A stretch of 64,000 nucleotides of DNA from Bacillus nitratireducens (lineage in GTDB: Bacteria > Bacillota > Bacilli > Bacillales > Bacillaceae_G), in the NCBI RefSeq assembly GCF_001884135.1, contig NZ_MAOC01000022.1:1-64000 (forward strand). Direction: 5' to 3'. The number at the start of each line of letters is the position of its first letter. Position 1 is the first letter of the stretch. The notes under the pieces were generated by a model. The model was given only the letters and a program-made list of their open reading frames with translations, was not told where the DNA came from and made no database searches. The position numbers and the translations under genes were made by a program. This document shows positions 4,656 to 8,428 of the stretch, one piece after another.

Positions 4656-4805
4656 AATTATTTCCCCCTTTTTGATAGCTTGTACTACCATCGTATGCAC
4701 CTCGTCCAAAAGATATGACCTATAAAAAAAGAAAAACTATTTTTCTAATCTCATATACATAATTTTGAGATTTTTTCATAAAACAGAAATAAAGGAGTGA
4801 TGCTC

Positions 4806-4985
4806 ATGAAGGAAATTGAAGTCGTAATTGATACGGAAGAGATTGCGGAGTTTTTTTATGAGCAACTAATTGAAAGAGGATACGTTCCAAAAAGAGAAGA
4901 AGTTGAGGACCTAGCAGATATTACATTTGAGTATTTATTAGAGAAATGCATGATTGATGAAGTTTTTGATGAAGAGGAAGATTGA
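4806..4985 (+). CDS. yozD: YozD family protein
   Basis: A 59-residue acidic protein (MKEIEVVIDTEEIAEFFYEQ...) matching the YozD family. I chose the ATG at 4806, eight bases after AAAGGAG; upstream GTG 4797 and ATG 4800 overlap or crowd that site. It is followed by a terminator. The gene sits in the conserved yozE-yodN-yozD cluster. Function unknown. Confidence 0.8.
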   Translation: MKEIEVVIDTEEIAEFFYEQLIERGYVPKREEVEDLADITFEYLLEKCMIDEVFDEEED

Positions 4986-4988
4986 AAG

Positions 4989-5016
4989 TAACGACGGGCT
5001 TAACTCGTCGTTTTTT
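4989..5016 (+). terminator. Terminator of yozD
   Basis: Stem AACGACG/CGTCGTT (4990-4996, 5006-5012) with a 9-base loop and a run of T. Confidence 0.75.
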
Positions 5017-5094
5017 ACTCTTTACAAACTTGTCACAAACAGAGACTACAATTATTGGTATAATTAAAAGAAATTTTATACAAGAGGTGAAGGG

Positions 5095-5277
5095 ATGTTC
5101 AAAAAAATTATTGATTCTTTATTAGGAAAGAAAAAATATCGTTCGTATTCAAGTAGTGATTATCGCCGTAGAGGGCGCTCTTATTCAAGTAGCGATTATA
5201 AACGACGTTCATCTGATTATGGGCATCATCATTATAAAAGAAAACGTAAAAGCCGTAGCTTCTTTTCAAGTAGCTGA
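5095..5277 (+). CDS. Ser/Tyr/Arg-rich basic peptide coupled to a kinase, 60 aa
   Basis: After an MFKKIIDSLLGKKK head (amphipathic, basic) the protein is a low-complexity chain with two copies of a RSYSSSDY(R/K)RR unit, then SSDYGHHHYKRKRKSRS and a terminal FFSSS. It has about fifteen Ser and several Tyr set between Arg/Lys. A ribosome site AGAGGTGAAGG precedes the ATG. Its stop overlaps the start of the downstream kinase (TGATG), so both are made from one coupled message. Residue content and coupling make it a candidate substrate or docking partner of that kinase; this is inference. No known family recognised. Confidence 0.8.
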   Translation: MFKKIIDSLLGKKKYRSYSSSDYRRRGRSYSSSDYKRRSSDYGHHHYKRKRKSRSFFSSS

Positions 5278-6098
5278 TGAAATGGCGTCGTATACTAGCT
5301 TTATTTGATAGACCACTGCGAAAAAATACAATTGTTGCAGAACGTTATAGCATTGAATCAGTAATTGGAATGGGCAGTTATGGGGTTACATATGTCGTTA
5401 ATGATTTACAAATAAATAAATATAAAGTCTTAAAACAATTAAGACAAAGTAAACAAAGATATGAGTCTGGTAGAAAATCATTTGAACAAGAGAAAATGAT
5501 TTTACAAACATTAAATCATCATGCAATTCCTAGTCTATATGATCATTTCGTATGGGAGAAAAAGAGCTTTTTTGTGATGGAGTATATGCCGGGAGAAAAT
5601 CTCGAAGATTATATTTTCTTGGATGGGCATGTATATGAAGAACGAGAAGTTTTTGAAATTTTATATGAAATATTAGGAATTGTTTCGGTTTTTCATAGTA
5701 AAGGTATCATTCACCGAGATTTACGTATTCCGAATATATTAATGAAAGAAAATCAAATTAGTATTATTGATTTTGGATTGGCTAAATTGAAAGGTGAGGG
5801 TGATGAGCGAGCTACAACTTATGAAGGAGAACAAGCTTTGATGCGAGAAGTTCACTTTCGTAGCGATTTTTATGCGCTCGGTCATTTCGTATTATTTTTA
5901 CTGTATGCTGGTTATGAATCCACTGAAAAAAAAGAAAAACCTTGGTATGAAGAGTTAATATTGGAAGAGTATAACCGCGAAATGCTAATGCGAATGTTAC
6001 AAATGAAAGCGCCATACTATGAGAATGTACAAGACTTGAAAAAAGATGTAGCTTACGCTTTAGAAAGGATGGAGGCCCCATGTTTCAAAAGTTTTTAG
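5277..6098 (+). CDS. Soluble eukaryotic-type serine/threonine protein kinase
   Basis: A 273-residue protein with a complete kinase fold: Gly-loop GMGSYG (31-36), ATP lysine in VLKQLR (Lys53), catalytic loop HRDLRIPN (146-153) and DFG (165-167). The usual HRDLK lysine is Arg here, while Asp148 and Asn153 are kept, so it should still be active. It has no membrane helix, PASTA repeat or other domain, unlike PrkC; it is closer in plan to small soluble kinases such as B. subtilis YbdM. Coupled by TGATG to the Ser/Arg-rich peptide and overlapping spo0M by 19 bases, so it probably acts with both. Confidence 0.9.
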   Translation: MKWRRILALFDRPLRKNTIVAERYSIESVIGMGSYGVTYVVNDLQINKYKVLKQLRQSKQRYESGRKSFEQEKMILQTLNHHAIPSLYDHFVWEKKSFFVMEYMPGENLEDYIFLDGHVYEEREVFEILYEILGIVSVFHSKGIIHRDLRIPNILMKENQISIIDFGLAKLKGEGDERATTYEGEQALMREVHFRSDFYALGHFVLFLLYAGYESTEKKEKPWYEELILEEYNREMLMRMLQMKAPYYENVQDLKKDVAYALERMEAPCFKSF

Positions 6099-6835
6099 CA
6101 AGTGTTGGTATTGGTAGTGCAAAAGTAGATACTGTTCTTGAAAAAGATGAGTATATAGTTGGAGAAGAGATAGTAGGAAAGGTTCATATAACTGGAGGCT
6201 CAGTTAGCCAACAAATTGAAAGTATTTACTTAACGTTATCGACGTCTTATGTAAGAGAAGTGGATGATAAAAAAGTAACGGCAACGTATGATTTGGAGCG
6301 AGTTCGTTTAACAGATCCATTTTCTGTAGAGCCAAATGAAAAAGTGGAAATTCCATTTTCGTTTTCAATGCCAATTGAAGCGCCACTAACACTTGGAATG
6401 AAAACGGTTTGGGTTCATACAGGCCTTGATATTAAACGTAGTATTGATCCAAGTGACCGCGACTATATCCAAGTGTTGCCGAATGCACTATTGAATAGTG
6501 TATTAAACAGTGTAAATCAATTAGGTTTTAAAGCGCGTCATATAGAATGCGAAGAATTACCGTATCGATTACGTAAGCAAGTCCCATTTGCGCAAGAATT
6601 TGAGTTTGTGCCTGTTTCCGGAGAGTATTATGGGAAATTAGATGAACTAGAATTATTAATCTTGCCAAGTGCTTACGACCGTTTAGAAATTATTATGGAA
6701 GTAGATAGAAAATCACGTGGATTGGCTGGTTTATTCGCAGAAGCGCTTGATCTTGATGAGAAGGTTATTCGCTTTACAGTAACAAGCGAAGATATTCCAA
6801 CGATGCAGCAAAAAATTAACAATTATATTTTTTAA
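6080..6835 (+). CDS. spo0M: Sporulation-control protein Spo0M
   Basis: A 251-residue protein matching Spo0M along its length: an arrestin-like beta-sandwich beginning MFQKFLASVGIGSAKVDTVL, then VGEEIVGKVHITGG and EIPFSFSMPIEAP, and a helical C-terminus. In B. subtilis Spo0M affects early sporulation and cell morphology. The start lies inside the kinase gene (19-base overlap), with AAAGGATGGAGG just before it, so co-translation with the kinase is expected. This suggests phosphorylation control of Spo0M, which is inference. Confidence 0.93.
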   Translation: MFQKFLASVGIGSAKVDTVLEKDEYIVGEEIVGKVHITGGSVSQQIESIYLTLSTSYVREVDDKKVTATYDLERVRLTDPFSVEPNEKVEIPFSFSMPIEAPLTLGMKTVWVHTGLDIKRSIDPSDRDYIQVLPNALLNSVLNSVNQLGFKARHIECEELPYRLRKQVPFAQEFEFVPVSGEYYGKLDELELLILPSAYDRLEIIMEVDRKSRGLAGLFAEALDLDEKVIRFTVTSEDIPTMQQKINNYIF

Positions 6836-6838
6836 TAA

Positions 6839-6900
6839 ACTATGCATAAAAAAGAAATGGAGAGGAAAACTAAAACAACCGCTCCATTTTTTTGCATAGT
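6839..6900 (+). terminator. Long hairpin terminator after spo0M
   Basis: ACTATGCA (6839-6846) pairs with TGCATAGT (6893-6900) and AAATGGAG with CTCCATTT inside it, enclosing A-rich and T-rich strands. The 3' arm ends only 12 bases before the next gene's start and its ribosome site begins within the arm. Confidence 0.7.
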
Positions 6901-6912
6901 GAGGTTATGTAT

Positions 6913-7548
6913 GTGAAACGATATCGACATTTATACTTGTTAAGTTGTACATTACTCATTTGTTTTGTCGCACTATCACTTTCGTATCATACCGCTTGTA
7001 TTGAAAAAATTGATAATGTAGTCGCACACTTTATTCAAAGTTTCCGAAACGATTATTTGACAACCTATTTTACTTGGATGTCCTTTATCGGTTCAAAAAG
7101 AATATATTTCCCGTTACTCATTATACTTGTAATGTATTTTCTCGTTAGAAAAAAACTGCTAAGTGCATTACTTCTAACAATAAATTATTACGGATCTCGT
7201 TATTTGAACAGTATGCTCAAACTATGGTATGAACGGGCAAGACCAGATGTGACACAGCTTGTTACGGCAACTGGATATAGCTTTCCGAGCGGGCATACGA
7301 TGAATGCTACTGCTTTTTTAGGATTTATTGCATACGTCACAATTACAGAAGATCGTATTTCATTGCATAAAAAGTTGCTGATTATTTTTATAGCGAGCTT
7401 CGTTGTATTATCTATTTCAGTTAGCCGAATTTATCTTGGCGTGCACTATCCATCTGATATATTGGCCGGATGGGCAGCGGGCGGTAGCTGGCTCGTTTTA
7501 TGTGTTATATTTCATAAGGCGTTCATCAAAAAAGAACCTATGTCATAA
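6913..7548 (+). CDS. PAP2 family lipid phosphatase (YodM-like)
   Basis: An integral membrane phosphatase of about 211 residues with all three PAP2 signatures: KLWYERARP, SFPSGHT and SRIYLGVHYPSD. It has five to six hydrophobic helices. It likely removes phosphate from undecaprenyl or other lipid pyrophosphates at the outer membrane face. I chose GTG 6913, eight bases after GTGAGG; ATG 6907 sits too close to that site and the TTG at 6892 lies inside a hairpin. The gene context matches yodM beside yozD/yodN in B. subtilis. Confidence 0.88.
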   Translation: MKRYRHLYLLSCTLLICFVALSLSYHTACIEKIDNVVAHFIQSFRNDYLTTYFTWMSFIGSKRIYFPLLIILVMYFLVRKKLLSALLLTINYYGSRYLNSMLKLWYERARPDVTQLVTATGYSFPSGHTMNATAFLGFIAYVTITEDRISLHKKLLIIFIASFVVLSISVSRIYLGVHYPSDILAGWAAGGSWLVLCVIFHKAFIKKEPMS

Positions 7549-7560
7549 TAGGTTCTTTTT
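7529..7560. terminator. Bidirectional terminator between convergent genes
   Basis: Perfect 13-bp stem AAAAAGAACCTAT/ATAGGTTCTTTTT with A run on one side and T run on the other. It contains the stop codons of both the PAP2 gene and the CDF exporter gene, which therefore overlap at their 3' ends by 11 bases. Confidence 0.9.
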
Positions 7561-8428
7561 GCATGGGCTCCACATGAATATGAGCATGGTATATTCCGAA
7601 TTTCTTTCGAAGCATTTCCTCAATATTGTCAGTGATACAATGGCTTTCGCGTACATCCATTCGAGCATCAACCTCAATTGTAATATCTACATACGTTTGA
7701 TTTCCGTACATACGAGCGCGAATATCTACAATATGTTCTACACCTGAAATATGCCCGATAGCATCAGCATATTCATCCATTTTTTCAGGGTCAATTCCAT
7801 CTGTTAGCATATGAGAAGCTTCTACAAAAATTTCCCATGCGGTTTTACAAATAATAAGACCGACAATTAAAGCGGCAATAGGGTCTAAAATAGGCATTTT
7901 GAACTGTGATCCGACTATACCTATTACTGTACCAATACTTACGAGTGCATCTGATAAATTATCTTTTGCAGCGGCTTCTAACGACTTACTCTTTGTTTGA
8001 ATCGCAATCTTTTTCGTATATTTATATACGAAATACATTACGACGGCAGAAAATAAAGCAACCCACGCAGCGAGTACATTAGGCGCTGCTTGTTTCGGAT
8101 TTAAAAACGATTGAATTGCACTAATCACAACTTCTAATCCGACCGTTGCCATAATAAAAGAAGCAACAAGTGATGCAATTTGTTCTGCACGCGAATGCCC
8201 ATATGGATGATCTGGGTCGCGAGGCTTACGAGAAATTTTCAGGCCAATTAATATTGCTAAAGAAGCACCAATATCCGTTAAGTTATTCAATCCATCAGCA
8301 CGTAATGCGCTAGAGAGGGTAATATAACTGATGATAATTTTCAAAGAGGATAAAAATATGTAGGCCATAATGCTGACAATAGCACCTTTATCAGCTTCTT
8401 TATGAGAAAGAGAATCCAATTTAATCAC
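7538..8428 (-). CDS. Cation diffusion facilitator metal exporter
   Basis: A 296-residue CDF protein: six hydrophobic helices in the first 200 residues, then a cytoplasmic ferredoxin-like domain ending HAHIHVEP. Metal-site residues are visible in ADGLNNLTD (helix 2) and KDNLSDALVS (helix 5), with HPYGHSRAEQ between. The layout is that of the MneP/MneS (YdfM/YeaB) branch of Bacillus manganese exporters, but metal choice cannot be proven here. Start taken as GTG at 8428 behind GGAAGG; a TTG nine bases inside is possible. Confidence 0.9.
   Translation of the reverse strand: MIKLDSLSHKEADKGAIVSIMAYIFLSSLKIIISYITLSSALRADGLNNLTDIGASLAILIGLKISRKPRDPDHPYGHSRAEQIASLVASFIMATVGLEVVISAIQSFLNPKQAAPNVLAAWVALFSAVVMYFVYKYTKKIAIQTKSKSLEAAAKDNLSDALVSIGTVIGIVGSQFKMPILDPIAALIVGLIICKTAWEIFVEASHMLTDGIDPEKMDEYADAIGHISGVEHIVDIRARMYGNQTYVDITIEVDARMDVRESHCITDNIEEMLRKKFGIYHAHIHVEPMQKEPIMT

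Follow-up and report, generated by a model that had tools for sequence, protein, structure and literature searches.

Does a small serine- and arginine-rich peptide, encoded directly ahead of a protein kinase and of Spo0M in Bacillus nitratireducens, belong to the kinase, and does Spo0M belong to the same set? The window, i.e., the whole stretch of 64,000 nucleotides which we analyzed (contig NZ_MAOC01000022.1), carries in this order ablA, a YozE-like gene, yodN, yozD, the peptide gene, the kinase gene, spo0M, a gene for a PAP2 phosphatase and a cation-efflux gene (Table 1). The TGA of the peptide gene (5275–5277) overlaps with the ATG of the kinase gene (5277–5279), and 19 bases (6080–6098) are common to the kinase and the spo0M gene. 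The ORF coordinates thus confirm the overlaps which a first-pass annotation had described for the three genes. The PAP2 phosphatase is possibly also a part of the set.

Table 1. Features of the peptide–kinase–spo0M locus (positions in the window)
Feature	Position	Strand	Remarks
ablA	1572		TIGR03820
YozE-like gene	3332		family PRK13672.1; named by synteny to the Cytobacillus annotation
yodN	3821		NF058646; family named as germination protein
yozD	4797		PF14162
Terminator-like hairpin	4990–5012	+	9 pairs, 5 of them G-C, then T run; downstream of yozD
Conserved upstream region	5020–5064	+	block CTTTACAAACTTGTCACAAA (5020–5039), then TGGTATAAT (5056–5064) as extended −10
Ribosome-binding site of peptide	5083–5094	+	AGAGGTGAAGGG; strong
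Peptide gene	5095–5277	+	60 aa, basic, Ser/Tyr/Arg-rich
Peptide, amphipathic residues 1–11	5095–5127	+	
Peptide, repeats	5140–5172, 5176–5208	+	
Peptide, basic C-terminus	5236–5274	+	
Kinase gene	5277–6098	+	small Hanks-type, 273 aa, probably YbdM
Kinase, G-loop	5367–5384		
Kinase, Lys	5433–5435		
Kinase, alpha-C Glu	5490–5492		
Kinase, HRDLRIPN	5712–5735		
Kinase, DFG	5769–5777		
spo0M	6080–6835	+	251 aa, arrestin clan, optional partner
PAP2 phosphatase gene	6892–7548	+	Pfam match
Cation-efflux gene	7538	opposite to trio	

The hairpin separates the trio of peptide, kinase and spo0M from the preceding gene yozD (between 4700 and 7000 two terminator-like sites were observed compared with 0.9 in shuffled sequences). 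In the window and in three related contigs (L004, L005, L006) the region which follows comprises a block of 20 invariant bases, a stretch that varies and an extended −10 in which one base differs, outside TATAAT. TTGTCA and TATAAT are 23 bases apart, and TTGTCACAA, placed 23 bases ahead of TATAAT, forms the sole such combination in the window; this arrangement resembles a Spo0A box that precedes a sigma-A promoter. We regard it as a lead that a Spo0A-like box and a sigma-A promoter may be located here. A consensus promoter scan of 4700–7000 called no promoter on the + strand at this place because a −35 at the usual distance is absent. Given the sigma-A look of the extended −10, the module would more likely be active in growth or transition phase than in the late spore coat.

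The first-pass annotation had described the product of the first gene as a 60-residue basic chain with repeated YSSSDYRRR-type units, and both units are indeed found, namely RSYSSSDYRRR (residues 16–26) and RSYSSSDYKRR (residues 28–38). The chain contains 16 Ser, 7 Tyr, no Thr and 19 Lys/Arg and has a net charge of +15. Among the 324 window ORFs of 35–200 amino acids it alone passes a composition cut by which Ser+Tyr and Arg+Lys+His must each make up 25% or more of the residues. Searches for a peptide family in Pfam, NCBIfam, PADLOC and PHROGs gave no match, nor did the solved structures contain a relative up to E 1; the chain is probably disordered. In six pairwise comparisons of the window, L004, L005 and L006 dN/dS was 0.05–0.11 for the peptide, 0.12–0.19 for the kinase and 0.06–0.11 for Spo0M, the peptide values coming from about 60 codons of low complexity and from a set in which L005 and L006 are nearly identical. 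As judged from these substitution rates the peptide gene is very likely a genuine gene under purifying selection, i.e., selected as a protein.

The five closest kinase homologues which we found (35–90% identity) stem from Cytobacillus spongiae (NZ_CP089998.1), Mesobacillus foraminis and three viral-collection contigs (L004–L006), and together with the window they represent three independent lineages only. In all five the peptide gene is located at most 2 kb from the kinase gene. The order in Cytobacillus spongiae is yozE, yodN, yozD, a DUF2515 gene and then peptide, kinase and spo0M, with the peptide and kinase genes 19 bases apart and not overlapping. In Mesobacillus foraminis the kinase and peptide genes are convergent and a shared transcript start is absent; since the peptide gene is on the opposite strand there, the peptide is not simply a leader peptide.

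The tandem units, whose conservation the first-pass annotation had proposed as a check, persist in all three viral-collection contigs. The Cytobacillus and Mesobacillus peptides lack them and retain the amphipathic start, a single YSSS core and the basic C-terminus. At pH 7 the peptides of the window, Cytobacillus and Mesobacillus have a charge of +13 to +16, and they contain 11–16 Ser and 4–7 Tyr. Their amphipathic start is moderately beyond chance, being reached by 263, 197 and 34 of 5000 shuffles, respectively. Adjacent serines are somewhat commoner than in shuffled sequences (218, 341, 101 and 1090 of 5000 for the window, L005, Cytobacillus and Mesobacillus).

We scored every ORF of 35–200 codons in the whole Cytobacillus and Mesobacillus records against the window peptide. 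In both records the top-scoring ORF adjoins the kinase homologue (first of 4432 ORFs with a score of 107 versus 59 for the next in Cytobacillus, and first of 3187 with 93 versus 40 in Mesobacillus). None of 2000 composition shuffles matched the peptide score, the best shuffle reaching 73 in Cytobacillus and 88 versus the observed 93 in Mesobacillus. The composition cut is passed by one ORF in the Cytobacillus record and by five in the Mesobacillus record, and composition alone is less decisive than the exhaustive ORF score. A profile of the four window-lineage peptides gave a single match (E 0.056) in the Cytobacillus record of 690 kb, next to the kinase gene, and no match in the Mesobacillus record or in two control records. 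With tblastn the peptide found nothing among plasmids at E up to 10, probably due to the low-complexity filter.

Alignment scans of viral contigs with kinase and peptide returned the same three contigs and one kinase of 27% identity without peptide, and a kinase search of genome contigs returned one MAG contig (24% identical). None of ten more distant kinase loci (eight on plasmids, one on a viral contig and one on a MAG contig), which were taken from hit lists and not randomly and of which one (L086) is cut at the record end, has a peptide-like ORF within 2 kb. That the peptide stays with the kinase in three lineages, in one of them across an inversion, suggests that it is a dedicated partner or target. 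The coupling is better supported than the first-pass annotation could know. The family of the peptide and its linkage to this kinase appear to be new; among the listed titles and abstract beginnings of open-licence papers none describes the peptide or a kinase–spo0M operon.

The kinase matches the Pfam family Pkinase (PF00069) with E 1.6e-30 and 106.8 bits (cut-off 31.7) and has no other Pfam domain. Residues G31, G33, G36, K53, E72, D148, N153 and D165–G167 are invariant in all six kinases, so that the G-loop, the ATP-binding Lys, the alpha-C Glu, the Asp and Asn of the HxD region and the DFG motif of a Hanks-type Ser/Thr kinase are all kept. Ser/Thr kinases typically have a Lys in the catalytic loop, at the second position past the catalytic Asp. 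The Arg which the first-pass annotation had seen in place of this lysine is present (R150) and is found in all six kinases, the loop reading HRDLRIPN in five including the window and HSDIRPPN in Mesobacillus. Control kinases have no Arg at this place (six Lys and two Ser in eight, the loop pattern having missed two of ten). Arg at this position is known in active Src-type kinases. A structural model of the kinase, for which four sequences were used, had a mean pLDDT of 35.7, too low to be of use.

Two Hanks kinases are reported for B. cereus, PrkC (BC3860) and YbdM (BC2258), of which YbdM can phosphorylate Ser215 of CodY in vitro but has not been assigned a role in the B. cereus group (PMC12583987, 2025). 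As the window kinase gives no full match of the PASTA type and B. cereus has these two Hanks kinases, it is probably YbdM (PrkD of B. subtilis), a match made by description and not by sequence. The passages on YbdM in PMC12583987 mention no peptide partner. If the kinase is YbdM, an activity in vitro has already been shown; the kinase has probably already been studied under another name. The peptide beside it would then be a concrete candidate for the dedicated partner of this kinase.

We favor the explanation that the core of the locus is a two-gene module, in which a Hanks-type kinase would act on its own basic Ser-rich peptide as a dedicated multi-site substrate or scaffold, and we hold it with about as much doubt as conviction. 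The first-pass annotation had also taken the peptide for a substrate or scaffold of the kinase, and with the linkage kept in three lineages, in one of them despite inversion, this has become the leading reading. We infer the substrate role, the attachment to the membrane and the link to Spo0M as follows. The amphipathic N-terminus would anchor the peptide to the membrane or within a complex and the Ser/Tyr-rich chain with its charge of +15 would dock the kinase; the kinase would then phosphorylate several serines, by which the charge of the peptide and its binding partners would change, with Spo0M as a further partner, likely but optional. CodY, the sole reported in vitro substrate of B. cereus YbdM, is unrelated to the peptide and therefore counts against a dedicated substrate.

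CotH is an atypical kinase, unrelated to the one found here. Nevertheless, CotH with CotB and CotG of the B. subtilis spore coat is the nearest working analogue, with a kinase encoded beside Ser/basic-rich disordered repeat proteins which it phosphorylates (PMC7821199). By analogy, peptide and kinase are best read as a pair that may function as CotG and CotH do, the two kinases being unrelated. CotG is, however, much longer than the peptide and has sigma-K timing. Set against the tandem Ser/Lys/Arg repeats of CotG-like proteins, two tandem units are seen in the peptides of the window and of L004–L006, and none in those of Cytobacillus and Mesobacillus. We rejected a CotH-type assignment for the kinase, as the CotH family is not among the nine Pfam families which match it up to E 0.1. 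If the peptide is a multi-site substrate, bacteria would have, besides the CotH system, another type of module for the phosphorylation of serine/basic chains, with a different kinase.

The first-pass annotation had compared the peptide with eukaryotic SR proteins, and a Ser/Arg-rich chain together with a Hanks-fold kinase does recall SR proteins with SRPK or CLK. This likeness holds for the composition but not beyond: the peptide has few true RS dipeptides and matches no Pfam family, RRM or other, and neither SRPK nor CLK is among the best 60 of the 2087 solved-structure matches of the kinase. For want of an RRM domain and of a long RS-dipeptide region we rejected the peptide as an SR protein.

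The peptide might instead regulate or place the kinase, being a basic tether to membrane or nucleic acid and perhaps an activator. The same linkage data (best ORF in both records, none at the ten distant loci) would fit a tether, as would the high net charge and the amphipathic start, a kinase in which no domain other than the kinase domain is recognized, and the related B. subtilis kinase YabT, which has a DNA-binding part of its own (PMC6213207). The 11–16 serines and the YSSS core kept in all lineages, however, go beyond the needs of a tether, and we consider this explanation unlikely.

It is improbable, in our view, that the peptide is a small CotG-like structural phosphoprotein of the spore surface which the kinase modifies. 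The phosphorylation of the Ser/Lys/Arg repeats of CotB and CotG by CotH is in line with this (PMC7821199), and so is the neighbor yodN with the name of its family. Yet cotB, cotG and cotH are under sigma-K (PMC7821199), as opposed to the extended TATAAT −10 found here, and according to two reviews (PMC6213207, PMC4837961) all characterized Hanks kinases of B. subtilis but PrkD (YbdM) have been implicated in sporulation.

We give a similarly small chance to a peptide with a function of its own, as a small protein which binds nucleic acid or membrane and whose place in the operon serves co-regulation alone. Its basic composition would suit this role, and operons often mix functions. In Mesobacillus, however, the peptide gene still adjoins that of the kinase although the two are convergent without a shared transcript start, and the other ten kinase loci carry no such ORF.

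Spo0M itself is a full-length member of its family (PF07070, E 4e-76, 255.8 bits versus a cut-off of 23) with 5cl2 as solved relative (E 4.7e-57). It differs from Spo0M of B. subtilis, a member of the same family, in that its gene immediately follows those of a kinase and a serine-rich peptide. Kinase homologues without the peptide and spo0M had been named by the first-pass annotation as evidence against the set; the peptide is present in five of the five relatives and spo0M adjoins the kinase in four, corresponding to two (the window's and Cytobacillus) of only three independent lineages. In the Mesobacillus record carrying kinase and peptide there is no Spo0M match over the whole 551 kb, the chromosome of the strain lying outside this search. 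In the Cytobacillus record NZ_CP089998.1 we observed three more partial Spo0M matches (504442–504843, 316497–316931 and 321538–321915), two of which contain stops within the matched stretch.

Spo0M is likely a looser and optional partner of the peptide–kinase pair. The idea of the first-pass annotation that the set tunes Spo0M during sporulation found no support, given the Mesobacillus record without Spo0M and given PrkD (YbdM), the probable counterpart of the kinase, which speaks against the sporulation idea because it is not implicated in sporulation; the tuning of Spo0M and a sporulation role are unproven. In the literature excerpts we found no link between the kinase and Spo0M. Spo0M of B. 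subtilis acts in vegetative growth too and co-precipitates kinases among other proteins, which its authors regard as common, often promiscuous partners, YbdM not being named in the passages concerned (PMC5325327). In a B. subtilis proteome study including a ybdM knock-out Spo0M is acetylated, and the passages concerned do not mention its phosphorylation (PMC6250715).

Spo0M has been placed in the arrestin clan (PMC2515105), so that its reading of a phosphorylated tail is conceivable. A relay in which the kinase phosphorylates the membrane-bound peptide tail and Spo0M reads the tail and signals to cell division or sporulation would, if true, connect a prokaryotic relative of arrestin with the reading of phosphorylation, similar to what is seen with eukaryotic receptors; we consider it quite improbable. 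The arrestin phosphocode has the spacing PxPxxP or PxxPxxP, and in the peptides such patterns are not above chance (as many or more occur in 2046, 1167, 2246 and 3634 of 5000 shuffles for the window, L005, Cytobacillus and Mesobacillus).

A toxin–antitoxin-like or defence pair, in which the kinase would keep a membrane-active basic peptide harmless, is highly improbable. A small basic peptide does adjoin a kinase, and the kinase matches the PADLOC models of the PD-T4-6 kinase (best E 3.4e-35), but it matches 35 PADLOC families, as expected of any Hanks kinase, and the locus, with ablA, yodN and yozD as neighbors, is part of a syntenic chromosomal region. We rejected a defence role for the kinase as generic kinase similarity. 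That the peptide ORF is a leader, a translational coupler or an accident of composition is hardly credible despite the TGATG overlap, in view of its low dN/dS, its opposite strand in Mesobacillus and its distance of 19 bases in Cytobacillus.

The distributed gene tables omit the peptide: nothing is listed for Cytobacillus at 5796–5963 (+), and in Mesobacillus at 6928–7170 (−) an overlapping hypothetical gene in another frame is given, the gene table for plasmid records being stated to be incomplete. Small basic genes can escape annotation, even in complete records.

A DNA search of phages gave no match and one of plasmids a single YozD fragment in Bacillus velezensis. This record (L018, labelled plasmid; 174–919) carries yozD, a PAP2-like frame with a stop (by eye), yodL and deoD and gives no kinase or spo0M match; the trio is therefore missing at that place. 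In Mesobacillus a PAP2 gene (7178–7876, −) is located upstream of the peptide gene and on the same strand. A PAP2 phosphatase is thus found near the peptide–kinase pair in both the window and Mesobacillus, the two being 37% identical over 183 residues.
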